In this document: positions 5,155-37,488 of the stretch, piece after piece | Position numbering within the stretch: position 1 is the first letter of the stretch | Layout: the number at the start of each line of letters is the position of its first letter | From: Mucilaginibacter sp. OK283 | GTDB lineage: Bacteria; Bacteroidota; Bacteroidia; Sphingobacteriales; Sphingobacteriaceae | Direction of reading: 5' to 3' | Length of the DNA: 64,000 bases | NCBI RefSeq assembly: GCF_900110415.1 | Contig: NZ_FODR01000010.1 | Location: 124,001-188,000 of the forward strand | Notes under the pieces: generated by a model | Database searches by the model: none | What the model saw: the letters and a program-made list of their open reading frames with translations, nothing else | Told to the model about the DNA's origin: nothing | Made by a program: the position numbers and the translations under genes

Positions 5155-6687
5155 TCAATTGGCCGTGAGTGCCACCGGCGCCAGTTGCCTTGGCGAACCA
5201 TCGGGTCCAACCGCTATAATATTATCAAAAATTACCCTTGAACCTGGCTTGATGCTGTTAAGGGATGCCGTCATGGAATCATTCAGGGTGTTGCCCGATC
5301 CAACCTGTACCGATGCGGTTTCGCGGGGGTTGGCTATAATAAGGCTGAACCGAGTGATTTTGAACCTGGCGTCAAAATCAAAATTATCCAGCATGGCAAA
5401 AATAGCATTCTGAGCTTTTAAGGCCACGGTAGGTACGCTGCCGCTTGACCGGCCCGAGAATTTTGCAACTGGATCAGGAATGCGTTTGGCCCTGAACTGG
5501 GTATGGCTTAATACCTGTACTTTACCCGGCGCAATTTCTGCCGATACCGAAACGGTTACCGTACCAGGAGTAGTAACCCTGGCCACATATTTCCCTTCGG
5601 AACCACTGAGCGTGCCGCCCGAAATACCTATCCTGATGCTTTTTGATGGGATCCCTGGTACAGACACTGATACCGGGTTATCTACCCCGATATAAAATAC
5701 ATTCATCTTATCGGGCGACACCACTGCCGATGGCCTTGAAACAATGTAACGCTGCTCGGGCGTGGTATAGGTTTTTATAGTACCATCGGTTTGTTTTACG
5801 CTGATGGTGCCCTTCCAGTTAAATACCCCCTCGCGGCTGGTATTTACATTGTATACACCCCGGCCATCTTTAACTGATATGGGGCTGCCGCCAACCTGTA
5901 CCGTTGGGGTTGACCGTGAATCATAAGCAGTTAAAAATACCTGCGCGGTGTAAGGCTGTCCTTGTATCAGGTACGATGTTGGCGCCACGGCCACTGCCTC
6001 AAATTTATCCAGGTTCACTACTGCCTGGTCCATTTTGCCCAGTATCTTTTTCACTACTTCCGATTCGGCATTTTTGTTATCTGCCTGGATGCGCGATAGT
6101 ATCGTAAACGTCGCGGTTAAGGGCACGCCTTCACCAAAGTTCAACTCTTCCCAGTTGCGGTGGCTGGGGCCTCGTTTTACCGGGTCATCGGCATTAAGAT
6201 TGAATGATACCGTTTTGCTATCCTGCGGGCCTAACAAAGTGAGCAGCCTTTCGCGGGTATCATTAATTTTTTGTTTAAGCGCGGTAGCCCGCTTTTTGTT
6301 AATCATTACATCAAAGCCGATATCAAGGTTATCGCGCTGTTTTAAGTCGCCGGTTACAAAGTCGTATCCGTTGCTTTGATTACTAAGTTCTGCTTTGATG
6401 TCCCTGATGTAAGTATCCAGTTCTGTTGTTACTTCCCTTGCCTGTTTTGCTTTTTCATATACAGGTTTGGCCCTTTCGGGCGATTCCTTAAGGCGGGTTT
6501 GCTCAAAAGTGCTGAACAATTGCTGTACCGAATTACCCACGTTTGCCGCCGAAGCAGTTAAGCTGTCGTTTATGGTTTTAAACGCGTCCAGTATGGTTTC
6601 TGATACATTCAGGGCCAGCATTGCCAATAAAACCAGGTACATGATATTGATCATCTTTTGCCTGGTGGTTTCTTTTCCTGCAGCCAT
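5155..6687 (-). CDS. gldM: Type IX secretion motor protein GldM
   Basis: The 510-residue protein starts with a short cytoplasmic tail and one membrane helix (TTRQKMINIMYLVLLAMLAL, residues 8-27). This is the signature N-terminus of GldM/PorM, followed by NVSETILDAFKTIN and a long periplasmic part of helical and beta-sandwich domains. GldM forms the rotary inner-membrane motor with GldL and reaches across the periplasm to the GldK/GldN ring. The length matches the family. It is last in a minus-strand cluster, separated from gldL by a 343-base spacer that contains a hairpin repeat. Confidence 0.92.
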   Translation of the reverse strand: MAAGKETTRQKMINIMYLVLLAMLALNVSETILDAFKTINDSLTASAANVGNSVQQLFSTFEQTRLKESPERAKPVYEKAKQAREVTTELDTYIRDIKAELSNQSNGYDFVTGDLKQRDNLDIGFDVMINKKRATALKQKINDTRERLLTLLGPQDSKTVSFNLNADDPVKRGPSHRNWEELNFGEGVPLTATFTILSRIQADNKNAESEVVKKILGKMDQAVVNLDKFEAVAVAPTSYLIQGQPYTAQVFLTAYDSRSTPTVQVGGSPISVKDGRGVYNVNTSREGVFNWKGTISVKQTDGTIKTYTTPEQRYIVSRPSAVVSPDKMNVFYIGVDNPVSVSVPGIPSKSIRIGISGGTLSGSEGKYVARVTTPGTVTVSVSAEIAPGKVQVLSHTQFRAKRIPDPVAKFSGRSSGSVPTVALKAQNAIFAMLDNFDFDARFKITRFSLIIANPRETASVQVGSGNTLNDSMTASLNSIKPGSRVIFDNIIAVGPDGSPRQLAPVALTAN

Positions 6688-6802
6688 TTTTTTAAGTTTT
6701 AATTTGATTTATTAATTGCTTTGATAGGGTATAAACACCTTGTGGGATGTTGTTAGCCGTAGTGAGGGGTACGAGAACTATCGGGTTTGAACGCTGGTTA
6801 AG

Positions 6803-6964
6803 ACTCACCCGGCGAGGCTGCGCCCGCCACCCTCTCTTCGGCTTCGCCGGAAAGAGGGGCTTGAAAGCGTTTTTGTTTACTTCCATTAAGGATATTCCCC
6901 GTTCAATTCCCTCTTTCCACCGCAGGTGAAGAGAGGGTGGCGGGCGCAGCCTCGCCGGGTGAGT
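6803..6964. repeat. Palindromic repeat element, copy 1 (perfect 37-bp terminal inverted repeats)
   Basis: Positions 6803-6839 and 6928-6964 are exact reverse complements (37 bp), beginning ACTCACCCGG and ending CCGGGTGAGT. Inner segments near 6847-6858 and 6910-6918 (CGGAAAGAGGG / CCCTCTTTCC) extend the pairing, so the 162-bp element can fold into one long hairpin. It fills most of the gldL-gldM spacer (6688-7030), which holds no gene. A related element lies at 22104-22270. Confidence 0.85.
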
Positions 6965-7030
6965 TTTCGCCGCCCTACATATCCACCATCCTATACCAGC
7001 GTTCCAACCCGAAAAGTCGTTCCCCTTTTA

Positions 7031-7828
7031 CTACATCCGCTGCTGATTCATAGCCGAAAGCATGTTGGCGTAGTAAACATTTAATGATGATATATTTTGC
7101 ACCAGCTTGTTCACCTCATCCTTAAACACCCGGGTTTCGCCTGCCGACTCGTGCAAACTATTCAGGGTGCCGGTAAGGCCCTGGTAAAACTGGTTAATGC
7201 GGCGCAGGTTATTATCGGCCCCGCTCAGTTCGCTCTCGTATAATGAGTTTAAATGTGCCAGGTTATGTGTTAGCTTTAAAACCTGTTGCTGATAGGCATG
7301 GGCATCATCGCGGCTATCGGCAATGGTAGCAAAGCCGGCCGATGCTTTTTCGAACATGGTACCCAACAGATCAAACTTGGACGAAGCGGTTTTTAGCTTC
7401 GCCGCAAATTCGTCTGTCCCTAATGAAGCATCAGCTATAGCGTTTATCCGGCTCATTTTATCCGAAAATTGTTTTAATCCTTCTCCCAAATTGTTAATCT
7501 TTTCGGGGCTTAGGTCTGCATGGGTAAGTAAGCCGTCAAGGGCAGCGGTAACGCCGTTGGTTTGATGAACCGGCCTGTGCCTTGTTACTTCGCCGGCATA
7601 ATCAACAGCCAGTTCGGGATATACTTTTTCCCATTCCGGCTCTTCGGCCGGAGGGAAAAAGCCCAGGGTAAAAAACAGCAGGGCTTCTACAGATAAACCA
7701 AGCCCTATCATATAGGTGCCAAGCTGGCCACCCCAGTGATTAATTTTAAACATAGCGCCAAGGATAACTATACTGGCACCCCAGGAAATGGCTATATGCA
7801 GCCAGTTGATTTTTTTGCTCTTTAACAT
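7031..7828 (-). CDS. gldL: Type IX secretion motor protein GldL
   Basis: The 265-residue protein has two membrane helices near the N-terminus, about residues 10-26 (LHIAISWGASIVILGAM) and 37-57 (GTYMIGLGLSVEALLFFTLGF). Glu48 in helix 2 sits where GldL/PorL carry the proton-pathway glutamate, and Lys28/His31 lie between the helices. A cytoplasmic region rich in coiled coil fills residues 100-265. GldL supplies the stator part of the proton-driven secretion/gliding motor with GldM. It begins 28 bases after the beta-barrel gene. The call is secure. Confidence 0.92.
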   Translation of the reverse strand: MLKSKKINWLHIAISWGASIVILGAMFKINHWGGQLGTYMIGLGLSVEALLFFTLGFFPPAEEPEWEKVYPELAVDYAGEVTRHRPVHQTNGVTAALDGLLTHADLSPEKINNLGEGLKQFSDKMSRINAIADASLGTDEFAAKLKTASSKFDLLGTMFEKASAGFATIADSRDDAHAYQQQVLKLTHNLAHLNSLYESELSGADNNLRRINQFYQGLTGTLNSLHESAGETRVFKDEVNKLVQNISSLNVYYANMLSAMNQQRM

Positions 7829-7856
7829 GATATTTGATTTTTAATGGTTTTACAGA

Positions 7857-8483
7857 TCAGAATTTTACATAAATGGTTACCGCCGAATTAAGGCCAGGCA
7901 GCAGGCCCCGTAACCCGCTGCTTACTTTGCTGGCCTTATCGCCATAGGTTGATGTGGCCGAACTGGTTGGAATAAACCACCCCAAATCCGTACGCATACC
8001 TATGTTTTTGAACAGGTGGATATTACCCAGCCCGGTGCCGATATAGGGTCTTACTTTCGACATGTAGATAGTGTAGTTGGGTGTAGTGCCTATCCCTTCC
8101 CTATACACATTATTTGAAAAATAATAAGCAATACCGGTAGATATGTACCACTTACGCGCCAGCCAGTCGCTTTGGCCGTACAGGGGCTGCCAATCGGCAA
8201 TGGCAAATACCGATGTGCGGTTAAACTGGGCACCGCGGCCGTTGTATTGCACCGTCATCCCCGGGAAGGTATTGAAACCTATCCTGGCGTTAAATGATTT
8301 CAAAAAACTGTATGATCCCTGGATGCCTAACCCCTGCGTACCAACCTGTACGCCAAATGATGATGTTGGAAATGCACTATACTCGGGCAGTACCTGGGCG
8401 CTGGCCTTGCCGCAGCAAAACAACAGCCCCGATATGAGCATCATCAATAAAAACTCCTTGAATAATTTTGCTTGCGTTGTCAT
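7857..8483 (-). CDS. Small outer-membrane beta-barrel protein inside the gld cluster
   Basis: I do not recognise a named family. The 208-residue product has an N-terminal signal sequence (LLMMLISGLLFCCGKASAQ). A series of amphipathic strands follows, alternating with short turns (FGVQVGTQGLGIQGSYSF, KWYISTGIAYYF, VRPYIGTGLGNI). It ends in Phe (AVTIYVKF), the usual C-terminus of an outer-membrane barrel of about 8 strands. Its start overlaps the gldN stop by 4 bases (ATGA), so the two are translationally coupled. PorP/SprF is the usual barrel near gld/por genes, but that family is about 300 residues and this protein lacks recognisable similarity to it. A structural role in anchoring the secretion ring is inference. 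Confidence 0.7.
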   Translation of the reverse strand: MTTQAKLFKEFLLMMLISGLLFCCGKASAQVLPEYSAFPTSSFGVQVGTQGLGIQGSYSFLKSFNARIGFNTFPGMTVQYNGRGAQFNRTSVFAIADWQPLYGQSDWLARKWYISTGIAYYFSNNVYREGIGTTPNYTIYMSKVRPYIGTGLGNIHLFKNIGMRTDLGWFIPTSSATSTYGDKASKVSSGLRGLLPGLNSAVTIYVKF

Positions 8484-9385
8484 AGCTTCTCCTCCTTTTT
8501 ACTATCTGTTTGTGCTAAATTTTTTGCGTTTACGCCCCTGGGGTTTTGCCAGATGTGTTTTTTTAGGTCGGCAATTTTTTGTTCAAGTAATACCGCTTCG
8601 GTGCTGCCCGGCTCCAGTTGCCCACTTTGTACCCCACCCGGCGACGCTTGTTTTACCAGGTAGGCCGAAAACTTGTGCTGCATAAACACATCATCCAGCG
8701 TAAAATCAAAAATGTCCTTGTCGGGGTTGCTCACATCCTCCTGCACCAGCGTGTACCGCAGCTGTGGAAAATAAAGCCAGAAGGCCGGGGTAAATGCCAG
8801 GTTGTCGGCCAGGTCGGCTGATGTGCTGATGTGCATCATGGGGGCCAGCGCTACAATGCGGGTGTCAACCCGGCCGCGCTGCCTGTCAAAAAACACATCT
8901 TCCTTAATCCGGAACCGGCGTACTTTATCGGGGTTGAACTCGTTAAGCGCCATCCTTGAGCCTGTTTGGTTACCGTCTTTATCAAAAATTGGTATCAGTA
9001 CCGAGTCGGCAAAGCGCAACTCGCCTTGTTTGGCGCTGAGTTTCTTTTTCAGATCCTCTTTTTCATAAGGCGTAAGCTTGCCTGATTTTATCCCTTTCAT
9101 GATAGCTTCCATAAGGGATTTACCAGGGATGGTAAGGATGCTGTTGCCCGAGTCGGAAAGGTCGATATCCCGCCAAACCTGTGCATATAACCTGATGTTG
9201 GCGGCATTAGCCTTTGGATAGGGGAAAGGCTTTGCTTTTCCTAAATCGGCCGATTTAATTAAATTATCATATGCCGGCAGGGTATCTGTTAACGTACTAT
9301 CGGCCACTATTGCCTGGGCAAAGGACATACCCCTGCCGAAACCGATCAGCAGAAGGGTTTCAATCACTATTATTATCTTTTTCAT
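8480..9385 (-). CDS. gldN: Type IX secretion ring protein GldN
   Basis: The protein has 301 residues with a signal peptide (IETLLLIGFGRGMSFAQA). The GldN/PorN core is visible: YAQVWRDIDLSDSGN, then RRFRIKEDVFFDRQRGRVDTRIVALAP, then FWLYFPQLRYTLVQEDV. The stretch FTLDDVFMQHKFSAYLVKQ corresponds to the family's FDDIFQKRxFSSYI motif. GldN binds GldK to form the periplasmic ring under the outer membrane. It starts 4 bases after gldK. In the standard order gldN follows gldM. Here it directly follows gldK. Confidence 0.9.
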   Translation of the reverse strand: MKKIIIVIETLLLIGFGRGMSFAQAIVADSTLTDTLPAYDNLIKSADLGKAKPFPYPKANAANIRLYAQVWRDIDLSDSGNSILTIPGKSLMEAIMKGIKSGKLTPYEKEDLKKKLSAKQGELRFADSVLIPIFDKDGNQTGSRMALNEFNPDKVRRFRIKEDVFFDRQRGRVDTRIVALAPMMHISTSADLADNLAFTPAFWLYFPQLRYTLVQEDVSNPDKDIFDFTLDDVFMQHKFSAYLVKQASPGGVQSGQLEPGSTEAVLLEQKIADLKKHIWQNPRGVNAKNLAQTDSKKEEKL

Positions 9386-9389
9386 AAAA

Positions 9390-10682
9390 TTATCGTTTAG
9401 CGTATTTTCTTGTTTTCACCTGCTCGCCGGGGAGTTCAAAGGCGGCCATCACGCAGCGGAAACCTATGTAGGAGTGGGCGTTACCCTGGTCTTCAAAACT
9501 ACGGGTATCACTGTTCAGCATCTCGCCGTTATCTTTCCATGATCCGCCGCGTACTACCTTTCGTTTTAATAGGGGCGAGTCTTTATCGGCGGCATCATAC
9601 AGCAAAGCCGGGTTTAAATCGTTTACCAGTTGCGATGCCGAAGGGCTAAAAGCGTCCATCGTCCACTCAGATACGTTGCCGGCCATGTTGTAAATGCCAA
9701 AGGCGTTGGGGGTATATGAGGTAACCGGCAGCGTAAATGTTGATCCATCGCTGGAGTAGGCGCCCTCGCCTTGTTTAAAGTTGAGCGAAAGTTTTTCCTT
9801 ACCGGTAGTTTTATCAATAGTGGTTTTTACTGTTCGTTCTACAGTATCAGCTGGATCGAGCTTGGCTTCGGCGGCGTATTGCCACTGTGCTTCGGTAGGC
9901 AAACCAAAACTTAGTTTAAAATTTTTAAGGTTGGGATTGTTCCTGATGAGCACCTTTAACTGCGTACTGCGCCAGTCGGCATAAGCACGGGCCTGTTTCC
10001 AGGTTACCCCGACTACAGGGTTATACTCATAAATTTTATTGCTGAAGTAGTTGGCGTCCATCACCGTCATTTGCGCGTTCGGAAAATCCGTCGACCATAC
10101 ATGCTCGTTAGGATAAACGCCGACCGTATCCATTACATACTGGTTGTTTTTTTCGCCATCCATGCGCACGTAATAAAACCGGTAGTTCATTAATGCCGGG
10201 TCGGGCATACGCTGGCCATTGAGCATGGTCATCATACCGGCCAGCTTTTCTTTTACGTCTGCCGGTGCGCGTTTCCATAAGGGCGAAATCTTGTGCACTT
10301 TATCCCAGTCTATCAGCCTGATCTCCTTGCGGTTTTTACCAACGGTTGCCCCTGTGGATGGCAGGTAAAAGGAATCATCGTGGAGGTAATCGGTAATGGC
10401 TACCGAATCGGCAACCCAGTTTACAAAGGCCTGGTATTGCTTATTGGTTACTTCGGTTTTGTCAATAAAAAAAGCGCTTACGCTTACATTGCGTTTTTCG
10501 GATTTATCATCATCATCTTGCAGTTTGTATTGGAAAGTGCCTGATGGTATATACACCATGCCTGCCGGCGGGATGAGGCGCTTTACAGAAACAGCGCGGG
10601 TGGCCGGGGTATTGTATAGTTTTGACTGGCAGGAGCTGAGCACTATTAGCAGCAAGCCTGTAATTTGAATTGACGATCTCAT
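9390..10682 (-). CDS. gldK: Type IX secretion lipoprotein GldK
   Basis: The 430-residue protein has a lipoprotein signal with lipobox LSSC (about residues 15-18). A formylglycine-generating-enzyme-like (SUMF1) fold follows: GMVYIPSGTFQ, FFIDKTEVTNKQYQAFVNW, FGLPTEAQWQYAAE, YNMAGNVSEWTMDAF, VVRGGSWKD and IGFRCVMA. In GldK/PorK this fold is structural and forms the outer-membrane ring with GldN, so it should not be read as a sulfatase modifier. It is the first gene of the minus-strand gld unit. Confidence 0.92.
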   Translation of the reverse strand: MRSSIQITGLLLIVLSSCQSKLYNTPATRAVSVKRLIPPAGMVYIPSGTFQYKLQDDDDKSEKRNVSVSAFFIDKTEVTNKQYQAFVNWVADSVAITDYLHDDSFYLPSTGATVGKNRKEIRLIDWDKVHKISPLWKRAPADVKEKLAGMMTMLNGQRMPDPALMNYRFYYVRMDGEKNNQYVMDTVGVYPNEHVWSTDFPNAQMTVMDANYFSNKIYEYNPVVGVTWKQARAYADWRSTQLKVLIRNNPNLKNFKLSFGLPTEAQWQYAAEAKLDPADTVERTVKTTIDKTTGKEKLSLNFKQGEGAYSSDGSTFTLPVTSYTPNAFGIYNMAGNVSEWTMDAFSPSASQLVNDLNPALLYDAADKDSPLLKRKVVRGGSWKDNGEMLNSDTRSFEDQGNAHSYIGFRCVMAAFELPGEQVKTRKYAKR

Positions 10683-11097
10683 AATTGACTTATCGGGGTT
10701 TTAAATAAAAAAATAGTCGAGGTGAGATCATAGCGTTTTTTTAATTGGTGAAACAATGACTCAAATATGGGAGGTGTGCACCCAAGGGGGCATAATGTGC
10801 CGATGAACAGACTAAATAACTCGATAAAGAAATTGGCGGGTAAAAAGTAGAATTTTTAGTTGGTTGCCTGTGCAATATATCAGTATGGATATGCGTTTTT
10901 AGTCGCGCTTTTGCGTGTTTCACAGGTATTTAGCAGATTTTGGCTGAAAATATTGTGTGATTTTTTGGCGTTACGATTGGATAGGACTACACGAAATGCC
11001 GGTTTGCAAGAAAGGTATTTTGATAAAACTATGGGCAGCAGGAGAGCAGGATTTAATTCACCTGTTTTCGGGCCAGGGTTAAGTCCGGTTGTGTAAA
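10683..11097. other. Intergenic region upstream of gldK
   Basis: The 415 bases between gldK and the AhpD-cluster terminator contain no gene with coding character. The gldK promoter should lie here on the minus strand, but I find no good TAnnTTTG match close to the start codon. A TTG-initiated frame on the plus strand (10860-11096) is compositionally unconvincing. Confidence 0.5.
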
Positions 11098-11130
11098 CAA
11101 AAGGCCCAGTATTACTACACAGGGCCTTTG
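11098..11130 (-). terminator. Intrinsic terminator of the AhpD cluster
   Basis: AAAGGCCC (11100-11107) pairs with GGGCCTTT (11122-11129), giving an 8-bp GC-rich stem and a 14-base loop. On the minus strand the stem is followed by TTTTG. It lies about 26 bases after the stop of the last AhpD-like gene. Confidence 0.65.
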
Positions 11131-11155
11131 TATTATAAAGCAGATCGGCTAAAAA

Positions 11156-11701
11156 TTATTTTAAAATACTGCCCACATAACCTTCAACTGCCCGTTGGGG
11201 AGCGCGGTTAACATAAAACGATCTGTCTTGCGGCGCCCATGTGCCCAGGCCATCTACATAGCGGTTAAACATGCAAAACGATGCGGCTATCAGCACCGTG
11301 TCGTGTATCTCTATATCTGTAGCGCCTTCGCTCCGGGCGGCATCTACCTGCTCGGTGGTTACATTTTTACCCCCTTTTTGAACACTGCCGGCAATGGTTA
11401 ATAATGCTTTAATTTTAGGCGATATATTAGCGGATGTAAAATCGGCTTTAATAGCATCTATATCGTCTATACTACAGTTAAGATAGTGGCCGGCTACCGC
11501 GCCATGCACGTTCTGGCAAAAAAAGCAGTCGTTCAGGTACGATACGTAGGTGCCTATCAACTCCCGCTCGCCACGGGTTAGCGAGTTGTCTGAGCGCAGC
11601 AAAAATTCGGCAAGGGCATTCAAGGGGGCCTCGGTTTCGGGCCGGTAAAACATCAGGCCTCTTATGCCTGGCAAGTCGTTATTTAATTCAATATGTGCCA
11701 T
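11156..11701 (-). CDS. AhpD-like CxxC protein (carboxymuconolactone decarboxylase fold), paralog 1
   Basis: I chose the ATG at 11701 because the product then starts MAHIEL, aligned with paralog 2 (MAHINV). The in-frame upstream codons come from the spacer. The 181-residue protein is an all-helical AhpD/CMD-family member. The redox motif CFFCQNVH places Cys59, Cys62 and His66 in the same register as the two paralogs, with RGERELIGTYVS before it. The C-terminal block IHDTVLIAASFCMFNRYVDGL is typical of the peroxidase-related subfamily. Such proteins can reduce organic hydroperoxides through the CxxC pair, but the electron donor and substrate here are unknown. Confidence 0.85.
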   Translation of the reverse strand: MAHIELNNDLPGIRGLMFYRPETEAPLNALAEFLLRSDNSLTRGERELIGTYVSYLNDCFFCQNVHGAVAGHYLNCSIDDIDAIKADFTSANISPKIKALLTIAGSVQKGGKNVTTEQVDAARSEGATDIEIHDTVLIAASFCMFNRYVDGLGTWAPQDRSFYVNRAPQRAVEGYVGSILK

Positions 11702-11923
11702 GGTATATTTTTTATGGTGAATAATTATTGTTGTTGAGGTGGTAGGTGTTCGGATCATTTATTTCCTCCGCACGGGAGGGGTGTGGCTGGCAATGTGCGC
11801 AAAAGCAGGGAGGGGTTTCGCCGCGCGACCATAAAAGTGTACTTGATCGCATAATTAAACCCCTACCTCCTCCTTCCCCAGGGAAGGAATCGCACATTCC
11901 ACCGCTTTTTTTCTTCCGAACAC
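11702..11923. repeat. Intergenic inverted-repeat spacer between AhpD paralogs
   Basis: This 222-base spacer holds no gene. AGGGGTTT (11811-11818) and AAACCCCT (11857-11864) are inverted copies, and C-rich runs around them (CCTACCTCCTCC, GGGAGGGG) add partial pairing. It looks like a degenerate palindromic element of the kind found elsewhere in the window. Confidence 0.5.
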
Positions 11924-12469
11924 CTATGGCGTATTGGGAGGTAAAGTATACCCCTTTGCCATACGTATGCCCATTTCTGCATAAGCTTCCGGATCTGTTG
12001 GTGTAAGGCTGGCCAGCCCGTCTACATAACGGTTAAACATGCTGAATGACGCGGCGATCAGTACCGTATCGTGTAACTCGCGGTCGGTAGCGCCAAGACT
12101 TTTGGCGGCGTCAATATCGGCCTGTTTAACTTCGGTACCCAGGATTTGCACTTTACCAGCTATGTTTAATAGCGCTTTCAGCTTATCGCTTACCGGGGCC
12201 TCCTGCATATCTCTCAATACCTCGTCAACAATAAGGGCATCGTCTTCATACAGGCACCTTGCCGCAGCGGCATGGCTACTGTAGCAAAAGGTGCAGTTGT
12301 TGCGGTACGATACATATGCGGCTATCAGTTCGCGCTCAGCGGGTGATAGGGTAGATTCGCCCCGCAGCAGTATCTGCGCCAGCTCATATAAAGGCTTACC
12401 TGTTTCGGGCCTGAACATGACCAGCGAACGGATGCCCGGAACGCCTTCGGGTACATTGATGTGTGCCAT
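11924..12469 (-). CDS. AhpD-like CxxC protein, paralog 2
   Basis: This 181-residue protein is closely related to its neighbour at 11156-11701. It has the same start (MAHI), RPETGKPLYELAQILLRG, the redox motif CTFCYSSH (Cys59, Cys62, His66) and the C-terminal block LHDTVLIAASFSMFNRYVDGL. The start codon lies 5 bases from an octamer tandem-repeat tract (12474-12567), which therefore sits in its leader or promoter. It follows the MFS gene by 127 bases on the same strand. The likely role is thiol-based peroxide or radical handling linked to whatever the receptor and MFS protein transport. Confidence 0.85.
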   Translation of the reverse strand: MAHINVPEGVPGIRSLVMFRPETGKPLYELAQILLRGESTLSPAERELIAAYVSYRNNCTFCYSSHAAAARCLYEDDALIVDEVLRDMQEAPVSDKLKALLNIAGKVQILGTEVKQADIDAAKSLGATDRELHDTVLIAASFSMFNRYVDGLASLTPTDPEAYAEMGIRMAKGYTLPPNTP

Positions 12470-12473
12470 ATTT

Positions 12474-12567
12474 TTATTGAATTATTGAATTATTGAATTA
12501 TTGAATTATTGAATTATTGAATTATTGAATTATTGAATTATTGAATTATTGAATTATTGAATTATTG
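12474..12567. repeat. Octamer tandem repeat (GAATTATT), about 11.6 copies
   Basis: The unit GAATTATT recurs without interruption, with its G at 12479 and then every 8 bases to 12567. It fills most of the 127-base gap between the MFS stop and the start of AhpD paralog 2 and abuts that start. Perfect purity suggests recent slippage. Confidence 0.97.
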
Positions 12568-12596
12568 CTCTTTAAAAACCTTTTCGCTTTAACCTT

Positions 12597-13853
12597 TCAG
12601 CTTTTGCCTTCTCTTTTATGGCCAAAAAGCACTACCAGCAGACCTACCACAAATACTAACGAAAAAATGAATATGGCATTACCATAGCCGCCCAGGGCCG
12701 ATACCAGTATGCCTACAAACAATACGGCTGTTGCGGTAAATATTCTGCCTATGTTAAAGCAAAATCCCGTTGCTGTGGCACGGATGCCGGTTGAAAATAG
12801 CTGTGGTATGTAGGCTGATAATACACCCTGGCTGGCGCCGAAAAATAAAGCCAGTACGCAGATCTCGGCATAAATAACAGGGCTGAAGGTGCTGTTGGTT
12901 TTAAACAACACGAACGATAAACCGGCACATACCGCAAAACAAATCAGCATCGACCGGCGCAAGGTAAGCAGGTTTACCAGCCACCCCGAAAGGAAACCAC
13001 CTGTTAGGCCACCCATACCCAAAAACATCATGCTTAAGCCACGCTCTTTGGCTGCATCATGATTGGTGATAAGGCTTTGCACCCAGGTTGGCAGCCAGGA
13101 AAATATGGCCCACAGGCCTATTAACATAGTGCCAAAGGTCAGCGAACCTACTACCAACTCCCGGCGATGGGCGGGCGATAGTAATTTATTTAGCGGGTTG
13201 TTGCGGTTGGCAATATCGTTACGATAGCTTAGCCAGCCTGGCGATTCGGATAAAACCCAGGCGCCAATCAGCGCCAGGGCCAGCGGGATAACGCCGATAA
13301 GAAAACCTGACCGCCATGACGATACCACGTAATTGATAAGCCCGGCCGAAAAGATGCCCACGGGGAAGGCGATAGACAGGATTCCGATAACAACGGCTTT
13401 GCTTTTGGCAGGCCAAACTTCGCTTATAAGGGTAATGGTTGTTACCAACACGCCACCTACACCAAAGCCGCTCATAAAACGGCATAGCACAACGCCCCAC
13501 CAGGTGGGCATTTGGCCTGTTAAAATGGTGAAGATGCCATAACAGCTAATGGCCATCAGTAAGGCGGTTTTACGGCCCATTTTGTCGCTGATAACGCCCC
13601 ATGTAAAGCCGCCCAATGCCCAGCCAAAAATGAAGATGGCGTTAATATAGCCACTGATGGAGTTAATTTCGTTTGGAGGCAAATTGCCCTGCAAATCTTT
13701 TACCACCACCGGCAGGTAAACCGACATCAGGGTAGATACCGTGCCGCCAAGCGCGCTGCTCAAAAAACAAATAGCAAATAGTATTACCCGGTAAGGTACG
13801 CTGATATCTGTTTGCGGTTTTAAACCCGGCTTATCAATTACAAGTGTGCTCAT
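12597..13853 (-). CDS. Major facilitator superfamily transporter
   Basis: The 418-residue protein has about 12 hydrophobic segments. The MFS loop 2-3 signature GVISDKMGRKTALL lies at about residues 87-100, and FMSGFGVGGVLVTTITLISEVWPAKSKA resembles the aromatic acid:H+ symporter / sugar-porter branch. A second-half equivalent loop (GWLVNLLTLRRS) is also visible. It starts 5 bases after the TonB-receptor stop, so the pair is co-transcribed and may move the same solute across the outer and then the inner membrane. The substrate is not readable from sequence, and export is not excluded. Confidence 0.85.
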   Translation of the reverse strand: MSTLVIDKPGLKPQTDISVPYRVILFAICFLSSALGGTVSTLMSVYLPVVVKDLQGNLPPNEINSISGYINAIFIFGWALGGFTWGVISDKMGRKTALLMAISCYGIFTILTGQMPTWWGVVLCRFMSGFGVGGVLVTTITLISEVWPAKSKAVVIGILSIAFPVGIFSAGLINYVVSSWRSGFLIGVIPLALALIGAWVLSESPGWLSYRNDIANRNNPLNKLLSPAHRRELVVGSLTFGTMLIGLWAIFSWLPTWVQSLITNHDAAKERGLSMMFLGMGGLTGGFLSGWLVNLLTLRRSMLICFAVCAGLSFVLFKTNSTFSPVIYAEICVLALFFGASQGVLSAYIPQLFSTGIRATATGFCFNIGRIFTATAVLFVGILVSALGGYGNAIFIFSLVFVVGLLVVLFGHKREGKS

Positions 13854-13858
13854 GTTGT

Positions 13859-16624
13859 TTATTTTAAAAGGTCATCAAATACTATGGATACGTAATAAAT
13901 AGCGCCAATGGCCGGCGAACCGTACGACTGGTAGATGTGCCGGTTGAAAATATTGCTGCCCCCCAGCTTAACTGTCGATTTGAACTTTGGGAGCTTTTTG
14001 CTGATCTGCGCATCAACCACCGAGTAAGCATCTACACGGCCCGGACGCGTACCGTTAAACGTACCGTACCAATCAAACGCGCTTTGCCAGTGCCAGGCCA
14101 GGTTAAAGCCAAAGTTGTTGGCAAAATTGCTGTTGCCAAAAGTGGTATTGGTAGCCCATTTAGGCGTGTTAAAGGCTGCAATGTTATTTGGATTTGCGTT
14201 GCGCAGATTGAAAGTTGATAGCGTAGCGTTGGCACCCAGGGCATATCCTTTATCAAACAAATAAGTTAAGCCTGCGCTTGCGCCCTGTGCCGATACTTTA
14301 TCGGGCGCGTTGGTGTATAGCTGGAAGGCATGTACCTTGCCACCGGGAATATCACTTGCCGATGCTGTGGTAACTTTGCCATCGGCACCTAATATTTGAT
14401 CTTGTGGCTGTATTACTACCGTGTTCAGGATAAAGTTGGTATAGCTGCTGTAGTAATAGTTTACATCAACCAGTAATTTATCCATAATTAAGCCTTTATA
14501 GCCCAGCTCAAAGGCCTTTTGCTGCTCGGGCTTAATATAGGCCACATTTGATTTTTGCAATAACCCTTTGTTTTGCTCAACCGCTTGCGGAAAGGGTGTT
14601 CCGCCGGCAACAGCCGCGCCAAATGCCGCACCAAAGGCACTTACTGATGATGCAGTGAACGAGTTTTCATAAACGTTTAACCCTGCACTGTTTTTGGGCG
14701 CGCCACCTAAAATGGTGATAGGGCCTACGTTAAGGTGAATAAACTGATCAACCGGGGTAGGGTTCCGGAAACCGGTTTGGTATGATGCCCTGAAATTATG
14801 GGTTTTATCAACGGTATAAACTGCCGAGAAGCGAGGCGTAAAGCTGCCTTTAAAGTTTTCGTTTTTATCATAACGGATAGAGGCCGTTAACTTCAGGTTA
14901 TCGTCAAACAGTTTTTTGGCGGCCTGCATAAACGCGCCGTATTCGGCAATTGTTACGCGGTTGGTTTTATCATCAAACAAGCTGCCGTTGGTAAACATGC
15001 GGTAATCGCGGTAACTGCCGCCGGCCAGCAGTTCAAACACTTTAATAGCGCTCGAGAAATCGTATTGCCCATCAGCATGGTAAAATTTACTTGCACTAAA
15101 TACACCCGCACCGCTTAGGCCGTAGTTATGAATAGATGCATCTTTGGCAGCGTTGAAGGCAGCTGTGCCCGGTAAAAAACGGCCCTGATCTGCAAAAGAC
15201 CTTGCTGCCGCATTATCGTGGGCGGTTACGCCGCTGGCGTTGCCGTTGTATGCTGTTGAGTAACGGGTAAACCAGGTATCGTCGGCTTTATCGGGCGTTA
15301 CGGTGTTGCCGCTTAAATCCTGTACCCAATCGCGGTTGATGAACTGCGCCAGCGAACGGGTATTATAGGAATCGTGCGAGTTTTCGGCTACGGAGTATCC
15401 GCGGATAAAAAAGTTACTGCCTTTCAGCTCCACCCTGTGGGTTTGCAGTACAAAGTTATTCAAATCAAAACGGCTGCTGCCGGTATAGCTGGCGGTTCCT
15501 TTACCAAAGTTGTACTGGTAAATGGCCTCCAGGTTATTGCTGATGCGGTAATGCAAAGCGCCGTTTAACTTAAGGCTGTATACGTTATAATTCATCAAGT
15601 CTTTTTCCTCGTAACCAGTTCTCGATACCAGGCCGATGCCGGGAAGTGTACGGGATACTTCATCGCCGTAAATATTCAGCGCGTCGCGTCCGGGGTTATT
15701 GGGCCCCCGTTGGGCAACCGGGGTTGATGCGCTTACATCGGTATAGTTTTCGGCATACCAATCCCTGCCGGTTAAATACGAGGCGTTAATTTTTAAGGCA
15801 AATCTGTCGTTGAAGGCTTTGGCATATCGCGCAGCAAAATCATATAACCCCTGTGGCTTTACAGATGATTCGCCAAAGTGGTTCATTCCGGTTTTAGCCT
15901 GCAGAGTTAAGCCCTGGTATTTGAAGGGATCTTTTGTTTTTAACGACAATAAACCATTAAAGGCTACGGGGCCATATAAAGCTGATGCCGCACCTGGTAT
16001 AACTTCGGCGCTTTCGATATCAATATCCGATGCGCCGAAAAGGTTACCTACCGAGAAGTTGAGGCCGGGTGTTTGGTTATCAACACCATCAACCAACTGC
16101 AAAAAGCGGCCGTTACCAGTGCTGTTAAAGCCACGGGTATTTACCTGTTTGTAGGTTAAGCTGCTGGTTACCGCTTCAACCCCTTTTAAGCTTTGCAAGC
16201 CATCATAAAACGTGAAAGAAGGATTTTCCTTGATAGCTTTCAGGCTCATTTTTTCGATACTAACCGGCGATTGCAATATGCTTTGGTTAATACGGGTAGC
16301 AGATGATACAACCTCGTTTAGTACGATGGATTTTTGCTGTAATTTGAGGCTTACTTCGCCGGCGGTTGTAACATTGTTTTCTATTTGCTCATACCCTACG
16401 GCAGATATAATGAGCGTAAAGGGCGGCTTAATTTTATTAAGGTTGAGGGAGTAATTACCCTTCGAGTCGGTAATGGTACCGGTTAATTTTCCTTTAACGG
16501 TAATGCTGGCGCCCACAACAGCCTGACCGGTTGAGGCATCGGTTAGGGTACCCGTTATTTTGCTTTCCTGCGCAAACAGGTTGATTGACGAGAGCAGTAA
16601 TATGATAAATAAAAGTTTTTTCAC
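13859..16624 (-). CDS. TonB-dependent outer-membrane receptor
   Basis: The 921-residue protein has a signal peptide (LLFIILLLSSINLFAQ) and a CarboxypepD_reg-like domain at about residues 22-100 (ITGTLTDASTGQAVVGASITVKG). A plug domain follows at about 110-235 (VNTRGFNSTGNGRFLQLVDGVDNQTPG, GAASALYGPVAFNGLLSLKTKDP), then a 22-strand-type barrel ending YYVSIVFDDLLK. No SusD partner lies beside it, so it is not a standard SusC/SusD glycan system. Metal chelates, cofactors or aromatics are all possible. It sits between AhpD paralog 3 (34 bases upstream) and the MFS gene (5 bases downstream). Energy would come from an ExbB/ExbD/TonB complex such as that at 40749-43715. Confidence 0.92.
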   Translation of the reverse strand: MKKLLFIILLLSSINLFAQESKITGTLTDASTGQAVVGASITVKGKLTGTITDSKGNYSLNLNKIKPPFTLIISAVGYEQIENNVTTAGEVSLKLQQKSIVLNEVVSSATRINQSILQSPVSIEKMSLKAIKENPSFTFYDGLQSLKGVEAVTSSLTYKQVNTRGFNSTGNGRFLQLVDGVDNQTPGLNFSVGNLFGASDIDIESAEVIPGAASALYGPVAFNGLLSLKTKDPFKYQGLTLQAKTGMNHFGESSVKPQGLYDFAARYAKAFNDRFALKINASYLTGRDWYAENYTDVSASTPVAQRGPNNPGRDALNIYGDEVSRTLPGIGLVSRTGYEEKDLMNYNVYSLKLNGALHYRISNNLEAIYQYNFGKGTASYTGSSRFDLNNFVLQTHRVELKGSNFFIRGYSVAENSHDSYNTRSLAQFINRDWVQDLSGNTVTPDKADDTWFTRYSTAYNGNASGVTAHDNAAARSFADQGRFLPGTAAFNAAKDASIHNYGLSGAGVFSASKFYHADGQYDFSSAIKVFELLAGGSYRDYRMFTNGSLFDDKTNRVTIAEYGAFMQAAKKLFDDNLKLTASIRYDKNENFKGSFTPRFSAVYTVDKTHNFRASYQTGFRNPTPVDQFIHLNVGPITILGGAPKNSAGLNVYENSFTASSVSAFGAAFGAAVAGGTPFPQAVEQNKGLLQKSNVAYIKPEQQKAFELGYKGLIMDKLLVDVNYYYSSYTNFILNTVVIQPQDQILGADGKVTTASASDIPGGKVHAFQLYTNAPDKVSAQGASAGLTYLFDKGYALGANATLSTFNLRNANPNNIAAFNTPKWATNTTFGNSNFANNFGFNLAWHWQSAFDWYGTFNGTRPGRVDAYSVVDAQISKKLPKFKSTVKLGGSNIFNRHIYQSYGSPAIGAIYYVSIVFDDLLK

Positions 16625-16658
16625 AGTGATTTGGTTTTAAATTAGTTAGGGTAATGGC

Positions 16659-17219
16659 TTATTTTTTTAAGTGATCATAGCCTTGCGGCAGGCGGGTATA
16701 ACCATGGTTAACCAGGCGATCGGCCAGGATGTTATAGTACCCGGCATCGGCAGGTAACGCTGTAGCCAGGCCATCAACATAGCGGTTGTACAGGCAAAAA
16801 AGAGCAGCTATTAGTACGGTATCGTGAATTTCGATGTCCGTCGCGCCCGCAGCTTTAGCCCGGTCAATTTCGGCGGAGGTTACATTTTTACCGCTTTGGC
16901 CGGTTAGTTTGGCAATGGTGAGCAGTGCCTTCATTTTTTCGCTCACTGGTGCTGTCTCGATGTTTTCTTTGATTTTTCGGGCGGTATCATTTTCGCCTAA
17001 ATACAAGTCGGCAGCGGCGGTGTGGGCGGTAGTACAAAACTTGCATTGGTTGCCGTGCGATACGATGGTTGCTATCAGCTCGCGGTCGCCCTCGGATAGG
17101 GTCGACGGGCCGCGAAGCAAAATTTGGGTCAGGTCGCGAATAGGTGCAGCACTTTCTTTGCTGTACTCCAATAAACCGGTTATGCCCGGTAAATGGGATT
17201 CAAGAGGAATATAAGGCAT
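16659..17219 (-). CDS. AhpD-like CxxC protein, paralog 3
   Basis: The ATG at 17219 gives MPYIPLESHLPGITGLLE, in register with the other two paralogs. A longer frame to 17321 would add 34 residues read from low-complexity spacer. The 186-residue product has CKFCTTAH (Cys59, Cys62, His66), preceded by DRELIATIVSHGNQ, and the block IHDTVLIAALFCLYNRYVDGL. CxxC followed by AH is the classic AhpD arrangement. It is the first gene of the receptor/MFS cluster and the most diverged of the three copies. Confidence 0.85.
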   Translation of the reverse strand: MPYIPLESHLPGITGLLEYSKESAAPIRDLTQILLRGPSTLSEGDRELIATIVSHGNQCKFCTTAHTAAADLYLGENDTARKIKENIETAPVSEKMKALLTIAKLTGQSGKNVTSAEIDRAKAAGATDIEIHDTVLIAALFCLYNRYVDGLATALPADAGYYNILADRLVNHGYTRLPQGYDHLKK

Positions 17220-33375: not shown

Positions 33376-35592
33376 ATGAAAATTTTTACGGCTTTAAGAT
33401 TTAGCAAGAGTTTATGTTTATTGGCGGCATTTATAACAACCGGGTTACACCCGTTATACGCACAGGAAGCGTTTGCCCCGCTGCCTGTAGCAAACCGCCC
33501 GCATTTGCAGGCCACACGTGTTACCGGGCCAATAAATATAGATGGTATCCCCGATGAGGCCGCATGGAATAACGCGCCGGCAGCCGCTCATTTTACTACG
33601 GCTTACCCACGGCAGGGAGATAAGGCTACCTACGATACCGAAGTAAGGTTGTTATATGACGACAAAAATATCTACATCAGTGCCCGCTGCGATTTTCCGC
33701 CGGGGAAAAAAAGCCTCCAGGTACAGGATTTGCGCCGCGATTTCAGCTACAGTAATAACGAGCTTTTTGAGATCCTGATTGATCCTTTTAAGGATCCGCG
33801 CATGCCGGTGATGACATTTTGTGTAACACCCTACGGTACGCAAATGGATATTATGCACTATGCCGATTTTAGTTACGACTATAAATGGGATGCGGTATGG
33901 CAGGCCGCCAGCAAAATACAGGAACATTCATGGACAACCGAGGTGGCTATTCCGTTTACCTCATTGCGGTATCCAAAAAACTCAACGGAGTGGAGCATTA
34001 ATTTTGCACGCAACATCCGCTTTATTGGCGAAACCAATGGCTGGTCGCCCTGGCCACAGGCATTTAGCGAAACGCAGCTGGCTTATGGCGGCATCCTTAC
34101 TAACATAGTGCCCCCGGATGCCGGTTTTAATTTACGGGTTGAGCCCTACGCCCTGGTAAATGCCAAACGGGCTGATAATAACGGGACACATTACAAACCC
34201 GAAGTTGGCGGCGAAATTAAGTATGCCATCAACTCCAACACCCTGCTTGAAGGTACCATCAATACCGATTTTGCCCAGGCCGATGTGGATAAGCAGGTGG
34301 TTAACCTGAGTCGGTCGAGCGTTTTCTTTCCCGAAAAACGGCAGTTCTTTTTAGAAAATTCAAGCCTGTTTTCGGTAGGTCAAAACAGTATTATTCAGCC
34401 GTTTTTTAGCAGGAGGATAGGGTTGAGCGACAATGGCTCGCCTTTAACCATCAATGGCGGCTTAAGGTTTATCCACCAGGATAACAAACAGTCTGCCGGA
34501 ATACTGGTCATGAAACAAAATGGAGATACTACAGAAAACGGGGCTTTGTTTGGCGTTTTTAGGTACAAAAGAAGTGTTAGCCAGCGCTTGCAACTGGGCG
34601 CCATGGAGGTATTGAGGCAAAATTTTGCCGGCCTAAATCAGTCTGCTTCTGTTAACCCTGTCGAGGTGGTGGATGCTTTTTGGCAGGTAAGCCAGCCGTT
34701 ATTTATAAGGGGCATGGCATCTTACTCGGGCAACTCGCTAAGCGGGCAAAAGGGGCCGGCCGCCTTTGCCGAATTTAACTACTCGGCTACTCATTTTTTT
34801 ATCGATTGGTTTCAAACGGCTGTATCTAAAGGCTACCAGGCACAAACCGGCTTTACCGCCAGGGACAATTTTATCAATACACAACCCACGCTGTATATTT
34901 TTATGCATAAAAAATGGTTCCCCAAAAATGTACAGTTTTTTAGCCCGCAGTTTACTGCCGATATTTACCATGAGGCATCAAGCGGCAAATTCCAGGAGGC
35001 CAGTGTGGTGGTGATGCCGCTGCAATTGTTTTTTACCAATCAATCGCACCTTGATTTTAGTATCACCAGTTCCTGGGAGAACCTGACAGATAATTTTCAA
35101 CCGGTGCGGAATGTTGACATAGCTGCGGCCAATTATCACTTTAACCGGTACGAGTTTTATGGCATTACCAATGCCGCAGCCCCCTTTAGTGCCGAAACCC
35201 GGCTGAGTACAGGCGGCTACTATAATGGCAGGCTTAATAGTTATTATTTATCGTTACGTGCTGCTCCCGTACCCCAGCTATCGCTGGTAATGAGCTATAC
35301 CCGCAACGATTTTAAAAATGTGGGTATAAACCGGGAATCAGCCACTACCCACCTGCTGGCACCCGAATTGCGGGTAGCTGCAAATCCCAAAATGTTGCTC
35401 TCGGCCTTCTACCAATACAATACCGATGCCCGTAACGGATCGTTAAATGCCCGCTTCTCCTGGGAGTACAGGCCGCTATCGTTCATTTACCTGGTGATAA
35501 ACAGCGTTAATAATTACTATAAAACTCCATTCGGAATTCCGCAGCGACAGCAGGGAGGTATCATGAAGCTTACTTATATCAGGCAGATATGA
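33376..35592 (+). CDS. DUF5916 protein with N-terminal CBM9-like domain
   Basis: The 738-residue secreted protein has a signal peptide (LCLLAAFITTGLHPLYAQ). A carbohydrate-binding-module-9-like domain covers about residues 45-230 (INIDGIPDEAAWNNAP, VRLLYDDKNIYISARC, WTTEVAIPFTSLRYP). A DUF5916 part of strand-rich repeats follows (INTDFAQADVDKQVVNLSR, FFPEKRQFFLENSSLF) and looks like an outer-membrane barrel. Its role is unknown in the family. It is divergent from the LytS/LytTR pair across a 186-base region. Confidence 0.85.
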   Translation: MKIFTALRFSKSLCLLAAFITTGLHPLYAQEAFAPLPVANRPHLQATRVTGPINIDGIPDEAAWNNAPAAAHFTTAYPRQGDKATYDTEVRLLYDDKNIYISARCDFPPGKKSLQVQDLRRDFSYSNNELFEILIDPFKDPRMPVMTFCVTPYGTQMDIMHYADFSYDYKWDAVWQAASKIQEHSWTTEVAIPFTSLRYPKNSTEWSINFARNIRFIGETNGWSPWPQAFSETQLAYGGILTNIVPPDAGFNLRVEPYALVNAKRADNNGTHYKPEVGGEIKYAINSNTLLEGTINTDFAQADVDKQVVNLSRSSVFFPEKRQFFLENSSLFSVGQNSIIQPFFSRRIGLSDNGSPLTINGGLRFIHQDNKQSAGILVMKQNGDTTENGALFGVFRYKRSVSQRLQLGAMEVLRQNFAGLNQSASVNPVEVVDAFWQVSQPLFIRGMASYSGNSLSGQKGPAAFAEFNYSATHFFIDWFQTAVSKGYQAQTGFTARDNFINTQPTLYIFMHKKWFPKNVQFFSPQFTADIYHEASSGKFQEASVVVMPLQLFFTNQSHLDFSITSSWENLTDNFQPVRNVDIAAANYHFNRYEFYGITNAAAPFSAETRLSTGGYYNGRLNSYYLSLRAAPVPQLSLVMSYTRNDFKNVGINRESATTHLLAPELRVAANPKMLLSAFYQYNTDARNGSLNARFSWEYRPLSFIYLVINSVNNYYKTPFGIPQRQQGGIMKLTYIRQI

Positions 35593-36251: not shown

Positions 36252-36450
36252 TATTGTATGTTTTGATAACACAAAAATGGTTAACGCCCGGCTGATTAAA
36301 AAGGGCAAAAAGCGACAAACTACGGTGGTAATACAGACAGTAGCAAGCTTTAAGCCGCAAACGCCGGATGCGGCACATAATTAATGAGTGCTCCGTCCTG
36401 TGTTTGATCTTATCCTTTATCTAAAATTCTTTGCTCCTTGTTTCTAAAAA

Positions 36451-37488
36451 TCAATTTTTGCCAACCTCAATAATATGAAATGACCCAGGCACCTGTTTTG
36501 GGCGGGGTTTAGGATTTTCGGCCGTCACCACACCAGGTTCGGTTTTAGCTGCGGGCAGGTATAGTTTATGAGTAAGCAAGTCGATGCCGATGGTACGGGC
36601 GCTGGGTTCGGTTGGGATGTTTTCTACAAACTCAAATTTATCGGCACTAAGCTCTTTTACCACGCTGATGGTTCCCTCGCCGTTTGAGGCATAGGCTAAT
36701 TTTAGTTTTGGATCAAACACCAGCCCGTCGCAACCGCCTATCGGGAATTTGGCTAAGTTTTTACCATTGGCGGCGTCCATTACCACCATGGTGCTGTTAC
36801 CACCGCAGCCAATAAACAGGCGATTGGTAGCACGATCGATATCTAAACCCGACGGTTCATCGCCGCCTTCAATTTTATAACGGGCTTCTGCTTTTAAGGT
36901 AGTGGCGTTAATAACAACCACCTCGTTAGTAGTTTCGGCATTTACAAATACTTTTCCTTTGCCGTCAGAAACGCCCGTTTCTGGCTTCGCGTCCAGCGGG
37001 ATGGTAGCAATCACCTTATCGGTAGCCACATCAATCACCGAGGCATCTTTACTTCGGCCATTAAAAGTATATACCTTTTTTGCAAAAGGCTCATAAAATA
37101 TAGCATCGGGATTGGTGCCAACGGCAATTTCGCCCAAAACTTTAAAGGTGGTTAAATCAAAAACAATCACTTTATTAACACGGCCGGCGCTGATGTAGCC
37201 TTTATTTAAAGCATGTACCAAAGCTATTCCATGTACGCCGGGTGTATTGGGGATATAACTTACAGAATCGCCGCTGGTTGATAATATATTTACCTGGTTG
37301 CCGTGCGACGTATAGATGAGTTTATTGGCCCCGTCAACCGTAATATAATCCCAACCACCCGTGCTTTTTATCGGGAAGCTTTTTAACATATGTAAGCCTG
37401 TTTTTTGCTGGGCCTGGGCATAAATTGGTTTAGCTAATATAAAAATAGCCATAAAGGCCAATCCAAGTATGAGTTTAGCGCTTTTCAT
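36451..37488 (-). CDS. Secreted YVTN/YncE-like beta-propeller protein
   Basis: The 345-residue protein has a signal peptide (LGLAFMAIFILAKPIYAQ) and seven or so YVTN-type blades (WDYITVDGANKLIYTSHGN, VIVFDLTTFKVLGEIAVGTNPDAI, ASVIDVATDKVIATIPLDAKPETGV). These repeats form a periplasmic or surface propeller, usually of unknown ligand. It stands alone. Confidence 0.87.
   Translation of the reverse strand: MKSAKLILGLAFMAIFILAKPIYAQAQQKTGLHMLKSFPIKSTGGWDYITVDGANKLIYTSHGNQVNILSTSGDSVSYIPNTPGVHGIALVHALNKGYISAGRVNKVIVFDLTTFKVLGEIAVGTNPDAIFYEPFAKKVYTFNGRSKDASVIDVATDKVIATIPLDAKPETGVSDGKGKVFVNAETTNEVVVINATTLKAEARYKIEGGDEPSGLDIDRATNRLFIGCGGNSTMVVMDAANGKNLAKFPIGGCDGLVFDPKLKLAYASNGEGTISVVKELSADKFEFVENIPTEPSARTIGIDLLTHKLYLPAAKTEPGVVTAENPKPRPKQVPGSFHIIEVGKN

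Follow-up and report, generated by a model that had tools for sequence, protein, structure and literature searches.

AhpD-fold paralogues with a TonB-dependent receptor and an MFS transporter form a conserved gene block in Mucilaginibacter and other Bacteroidota

The proteins of the TIGR01926 family (PDB 2prr, 2pfx, 3c1l, 2oyo, and 6k40) have the AhpD/CMD fold, a Glu together with the motif C-x2-C-x3-H, and a length of about 190 aa. Most of these structures were deposited as uncharacterised or putative proteins. The known mechanism of AhpD is a proton relay of a Glu, two Cys, a His/Tyr, and a His (PMC3141380). The CMD member TTHA0727 has lost the equivalent of the first Cys, which has been taken to mean that it has no peroxidase activity (PMC3141380). 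The AhpD-like RclX, which carries CxxC, protects Pseudomonas aeruginosa against HOCl/HOSCN (PMC7950407). The tetrabromopyrrole debrominase Bmp8 (6ohi/6ohj) is a CMD-fold metabolic enzyme, and gamma-carboxymuconolactone decarboxylase is likewise a metabolic enzyme of this fold that acts on small molecules. The SusC-type PULs have a TonB receptor with a CarboxypepD_reg domain.

The locus reported in this work lies in a window of Mucilaginibacter sp. OK283, where the window is the whole stretch of 64,000 nucleotides that was analysed. The block is transcribed in the order of HypN, AhpD1, TBDR (TonB-dependent receptor), MFS, AhpD2, and AhpD3, all on the minus strand. The five-gene run that an earlier note described on this DNA was confirmed in all details that were checked, and HypN was added upstream as a sixth conserved gene. 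The features are shown in Table 1. The AhpDs are numbered here in the order of transcription; the earlier note seems to number them by coordinate.

Table 1. Features of the block and their positions in the window.
Feature	Position	Strand	Description
HypN	17967-17419	minus	182 aa; long N-terminal helix (predicted); head gene of the block
AhpD1	17219-16659	minus	186 aa; CMD/TIGR01926-type AhpD-fold, C59xxC62xxxH66
TBDR	16624-13859	minus	921 aa, GTG start; CarboxypepD_reg-like N-domain, plug, and barrel
MFS transporter	13853-12597	minus	418 aa; nearest to aromatic-acid:H+ symporters (TIGR00895, under cut-off)
Octamer tandem array TTATTGAA x 11.8	12474-12567	no strand	Perfect copies; MFS-AhpD2 gap
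AhpD2	12469-11924	minus	181 aa; AhpD-fold enzyme
Interspersed repeat	11743-11923	no strand	AhpD2-AhpD3 gap; matched ~30 times in the genome, in full or in part
AhpD3	11701-11156	minus	181 aa counted from the ATG at 11701; AhpD-fold enzyme; type whose CxxC is always kept in the sample

The TBDR and MFS genes are 5 bases apart, as had been noted before. The two following gaps are unusual in the window: 127 nt between MFS and AhpD2, which holds the octamer array, and 222 nt between AhpD2 and AhpD3, which holds the interspersed repeat. Only a few bases separate the octamer array from the start codon of AhpD2, which lies downstream of it. In the 7.2-Mb genome, no more than three sites have four consecutive exact octamers. 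Two of these sites adjoin AhpD genes, namely the block on contig C11 and C15:188894 behind AhpD4-DUF3179. M. flavus (L057) also carries the array between MFS and AhpD2, though in another number of copies, and the array may be a length-variable spacer. The interspersed repeat has a unit of 150-180 bp, and its copies are spread over the genome. Directly downstream of the block, T9SS genes were observed at 5155-10682 of the window on the minus strand, in the order of GldK, GldN, a gene for an unknown protein of 208 aa, GldL, and GldM. A K-L-M-N order, unlike that in the window, is known from other T9SS loci.

The block is co-inherited as a unit in the bacteria that carry it. Strong AhpD homologues (>140 bits) were found in 13 of the 201 family genomes that were searched. 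The orthologous MFS was found in 10 of the 201 genomes at 11 loci, and all 11 loci are inside AhpD clusters. The MFS thus occurs in 10/13 genomes with strong AhpD homologues and in 0/188 of the others (Fisher test, p = 1.2e-14, with shared ancestry ignored). Receptors of at least 60% identity to the TBDR were found in nine family genomes, in every case inside AhpD clusters, while the seven examined cases of further receptors (at most 47% identity) all lie without AhpD or MFS. The TBDR therefore belongs to a receptor clade that is confined to AhpD clusters in the family sample. The earlier note had held that an AhpD-receptor-MFS adjacency not conserved in related genomes would refute an undescribed system; the search of Bacteroidota for the block and its co-occurrence found this adjacency conserved. 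Chance adjacency was considered and rejected since both synteny and co-occurrence are against it.

The order of the block recurs in Sphingobacteriaceae, Chitinophagaceae, Spirosomataceae/Cytophagaceae, and Saprospiraceae with gaps near zero. In the phylum sample, the AhpD family was found in 21/297 genomes. We annotated 80 named loci from Mucilaginibacter, Pedobacter, Segetibacter, Flavitalea, Spirosoma, Larkinella, Ohtaekwangia, Saprospiraceae, and others, and the closest matches among them are from Mucilaginibacter. The 67 loci outside the set of Acidobacteriota and others were chosen by AhpD2 similarity, so that their counts describe block structure and not prevalence. Among these AhpD2-selected loci, MFS is present in 64, a TBDR or SusC in 57, and all three AhpD types in 52; the three AhpD types together with MFS and a TBDR or SusC are present in 49. 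A contiguous run of TBDR, MFS, AhpD2, and AhpD3 is present in 37/67. The median gaps are operon-like (AhpD1-TBDR 33 nt, TBDR-MFS 5 nt, MFS-AhpD2 14 nt, and AhpD2-AhpD3 8 nt), and in numerous Bacteroidota loci AhpD1 is preceded by HypN.

The wider gene set in Bacteroidota consists of several recurrent partners, some of whose loci are duplicated in the counts. They are HypN (56 loci), DUF3179 (39 loci), PAP2/VCPO-like lipoproteins (14 loci), FG-GAP/UnbV_ASPIC proteins of the CRTAC1 type (14 loci), MetE-like PF01717 (nine loci), and PF00756 esterases (five loci), and SusC/SusD and two barrel-like families without a Pfam match are also recurrent. The block had been described as lacking SusD, which is true of the copy in the window; SusC/SusD genes do occur in a sister form of the locus, and sister loci also carry a secreted-type esterase. 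HypN paralogues in this genome head two other modules. The first (contig C14) consists of HypN, FG-GAP/UnbV, and a small secreted protein. The second (L179, C24:28000-44000) consists of HypN, a barrel, PAP2/haloperoxidase-like, DoxX-like, another barrel, RidA, a BhcC-like aldolase, and an M19 dipeptidase, and much of its gene content reappears in a joined locus (L048) from another genome of the genus. Modules are fused into one run in Chitinophagaceae (L072) and in that one same-genus genome (G111, L048). These HypN-headed modules and joined runs indicate that the block is best regarded as a module within a multi-operon system. No constant substrate-defining catabolic enzyme was found among the neighbours of the block, and no ring-cleavage or lactonising enzyme was recognised among the recurrent ones. 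A fourth AhpD paralogue lies elsewhere in the same genome beside a DUF3179 gene. In that region (L036, C15:177000-196900; 8602-13000 of the locus), alpha-acetolactate decarboxylase, AhpD4, DUF3179, and an AraC-type regulator were observed together.

All three AhpDs in the window score 43-50 bits with CMD PF02627, whose cut-off is 23. AhpD1 (89.5) and AhpD2 (88.1) are above the cut-off of 81.8 of TIGR01926 ('peroxidase-related'), and AhpD3 (79.8) is just under it. The CxxC-x3-H motif at residues 59, 62, and 66 and the block VLIAA.F..[FY]NRYVDGL were seen in all three copies as previously described, and AhpD1 has 47% and 50% identity to the other two. The tree of 78 sequences exhibits three clades with high support values (AhpD1 100/99, AhpD2 98/97, and AhpD3 98/97). 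These clades largely agree with the position in the block, distant families included, which points to an old triplication after which the copies mostly stayed where they were. Additional AhpD types are found with SusC/SusD or DUF3179, and the fourth paralogue of this genome is one of them.

Glu47, Asn57, Cys62, His66, and Asn146 are invariant in 279/279 full homologues, and His133, Tyr148, Asp150, and Gly151 are nearly invariant. Cys59 is replaced with Thr in 21 of the 279, so that CxxC is retained in about 92%. The replacement corresponds to three changes on a larger tree and is confined to the AhpD1 and AhpD2 types, where types were assigned by best match; Cys59 is present in 119/119 of the AhpD3 type. 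The Streptomyces single-domain homologues that were newly checked have Thr at this position (11/11), and a Nonomuraea homologue has Cys. Selenocysteine at CxxC was rejected as the in-frame stops of three loci (L138, L148, and L151) are ordinary termination codons that end the genes. The replacement of Cys59 in some members around an invariant Glu-Cys-His core suggests that a disulfide relay is not under selection in all members. The label of peroxide-type CxxC enzymes in the earlier note is weakened: both Cys are present in the three window copies, but the first is not kept in some AhpD1 and AhpD2 lineages or in the Streptomyces homologues checked. The AF2 model of AhpD2 (pLDDT 90) has TIGR01926 structures as its best structural matches and Bmp8 as a weaker one, and His133, Tyr148, and Asp150 are absent from the aligned PDB relatives.

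The main rival explanation is oxidant defence, in which the AhpDs would reduce organic hydroperoxides, hypohalous acid, or the products of these, the transporters would import or expel a redox-active compound, and the PAP2 haloperoxidase-like partners would be the oxidant source. It is the main rival because most members have CxxC and RclX gives a precedent, and the TIGR01926 scores of two of the three window AhpDs and the PAP2/VCPO-like neighbours are in line with it. However, the loss of Cys59 in AhpD1/AhpD2 lineages and Streptomyces parallels TTHA0727, the only 1-cysPrx_C match (PF10417, AhpC/TSA-type) in the genome lies on contig C13 and not near the block, and simple peroxide protection would not call for a dedicated receptor and importer. 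We consider oxidant defence rather unlikely. In-house detoxification, one of two readings offered by the earlier note, is weakened by the absence of a nearby AhpC and by the near-invariant extra residues and survives as this rival. Its other reading, AhpD-fold proteins as catabolic enzymes, is favoured in the form of processing enzymes: the proteins can do without the first Cys, no AhpC gene lies close to the block, and the residue pattern suggests chemistry that may go beyond peroxide defence. Redox chemistry may still be involved given the 'peroxidase-related' name of TIGR01926 and the CxxC of most homologues and of all AhpD3-type members.

The receptor has the PF07715 plug and PF00593 barrel domains above cut-offs, and CarbopepD_reg_2 was also called. 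The MFS transporter matches Pfam MFS_1, and its best NCBIfam model is TIGR00895 AAHS (155 bits against a cut-off of 418.55). The two-membrane transport route that had been proposed is plausible with these domains, and the import direction of the MFS would follow from this family resemblance, which is under the curated cut-off. HypN has no Pfam or NCBIfam match, and its AF2 model is poor (pLDDT 61) and gave no PDB match. Most neighbourhoods of related stand-alone receptors (39-47% identity) gave no clue to the substrate, and one such receptor adjoins a ModE-like gene. The closest PDB relative of the receptor is Cir, the colicin I receptor. PF00756, to which the esterases of sister loci belong, is a family that includes enterochelin esterases. 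Both would suit uptake of a xenosiderophore or metal chelate from which the AhpD CxxC proteins free the metal by reduction. That explanation is very unlikely, as the top NCBIfam model of the receptor is SusC/RagA, though under cut-off, the MFS resembles organic-acid symporters, and no siderophore gene recurs among the neighbours.

Related arrangements were also identified in other phyla. In one Acidobacteriota locus (L122), the AhpDs are accompanied by a CRTAC1-type protein, an MFS of the monocarboxylate type, and an outer-membrane barrel that resembles Oar. Its transporters are of the same two kinds, yet they are not orthologous to those of Bacteroidota; the presence of unrelated transporters of the same kinds beside AhpDs was counted for import. 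In Streptomyces, the AhpD family is next to MFS in about 5/14 contexts, several of which are biosynthetic clusters, and the MFS neighbours that were tested include two of the metabolite/H+ symporter type. A general AhpD-MFS pairing, suggested by the first Streptomyces plasmids, was rejected when wider sampling cut the pairing to that proportion.

Streptomyces relatives also lie inside enediyne clusters, such as that of C-1027 on plasmid SGLP1, and this presence is an unexplained lead. The S. globisporus C-1027 plasmid (L200) has a TxxC-type AhpD-family gene and an 'alkylhydroperoxidase' at 36371-36922 and 34400-35395, and NBC_00637 and NBC_00846 have an AhpD-family placement similar to that of the C-1027 cluster. 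Such genes may have a part in enediyne chemistry or in self-protection. The enediyne homologues, and the CRTAC1/UnbV proteins that co-occur in both settings, would fit an electrophilic metabolite of actinobacterial type that is imported by the receptor and MFS and disarmed or scavenged through attack by Cys62 of the AhpDs. However, the Streptomyces carriers are producers, so the genes may be biosynthetic, and Bacteroidota may often have CRTAC1-type proteins on unrelated grounds. We consider this explanation highly improbable. A broader proposal is decidedly unlikely: three paralogues with divided labour, possibly in one hetero-oligomer, would use Cys62/His66/Glu47 chemistry instead of a disulfide relay to break down or disarm a reactive natural product that enters by the TonB receptor and MFS, in a multi-operon Bacteroidota system whose chemistry is common with actinobacterial enediyne clusters.

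The reading that we prefer, with a probability of roughly 0.55, is that an organic-acid-like compound enters through the TonB receptor and MFS and then undergoes AhpD-fold chemistry. The TBDR would carry a small molecule across the outer membrane, and the aromatic-acid-symporter-like MFS would carry that molecule or its acid across the inner membrane. The three ancient AhpD-fold paralogues would then transform it in the cytoplasm. They would do so with the shared AhpD core of Glu47, Asn57, Cys62, and His66 and the His133, Tyr148, and Asp150 of their own family, the complete CxxC redox pair being constant in the AhpD3 type alone. On this reading, the block would belong as one module to a conserved system for acquiring and processing a compound.

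The earlier note regarded the block as a candidate for an undescribed system, and we found this gene combination described nowhere in the open-licence papers that were searched. Parts of these kinds are familiar, whereas we found no description of their combination or of the conserved residues of the subfamily. The block is a conserved unnamed gene set in a minority of Bacteroidota, in which an enzyme family labelled 'peroxidase-related' is present in triplicate alongside a putative dedicated route for import across both membranes. Many CMD/AhpD annotations would be misleading if the AhpDs turn out to act in metabolism.

Comparing the block to the known systems, the TIGR01926 structures have 27-31% identity to AhpD2 in structural alignment and lack G151 in addition to H133, Y148, and D150 of the block group. 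AhpD of M. tuberculosis has the proton-relay Glu, two Cys, and His at equivalent spacing. However, it is a weak structural match, its partner AhpC is not near the block, its His132 position is Phe/Tyr in the block group, and its first Cys is dispensable there. RclX shares the fold and CxxC with the block AhpDs, whereas it is encoded in a single-gene operon beside the regulator gene rclR with no receptor or transporter described. Bmp8 was matched to AhpD2 by Foldseek (TMq 0.66-0.70) with 14-16% identity, and the likeness seen is one of fold. The beta-ketoadipate pathway context of gamma-carboxymuconolactone decarboxylase was not found among the recurrent neighbours of the block. The SusC-type PULs resemble the block in their receptor and the sister loci in SusC/SusD and the esterase, whereas the block itself, without SusD and glycan enzymes, has an aromatic-acid-type MFS and AhpDs instead.
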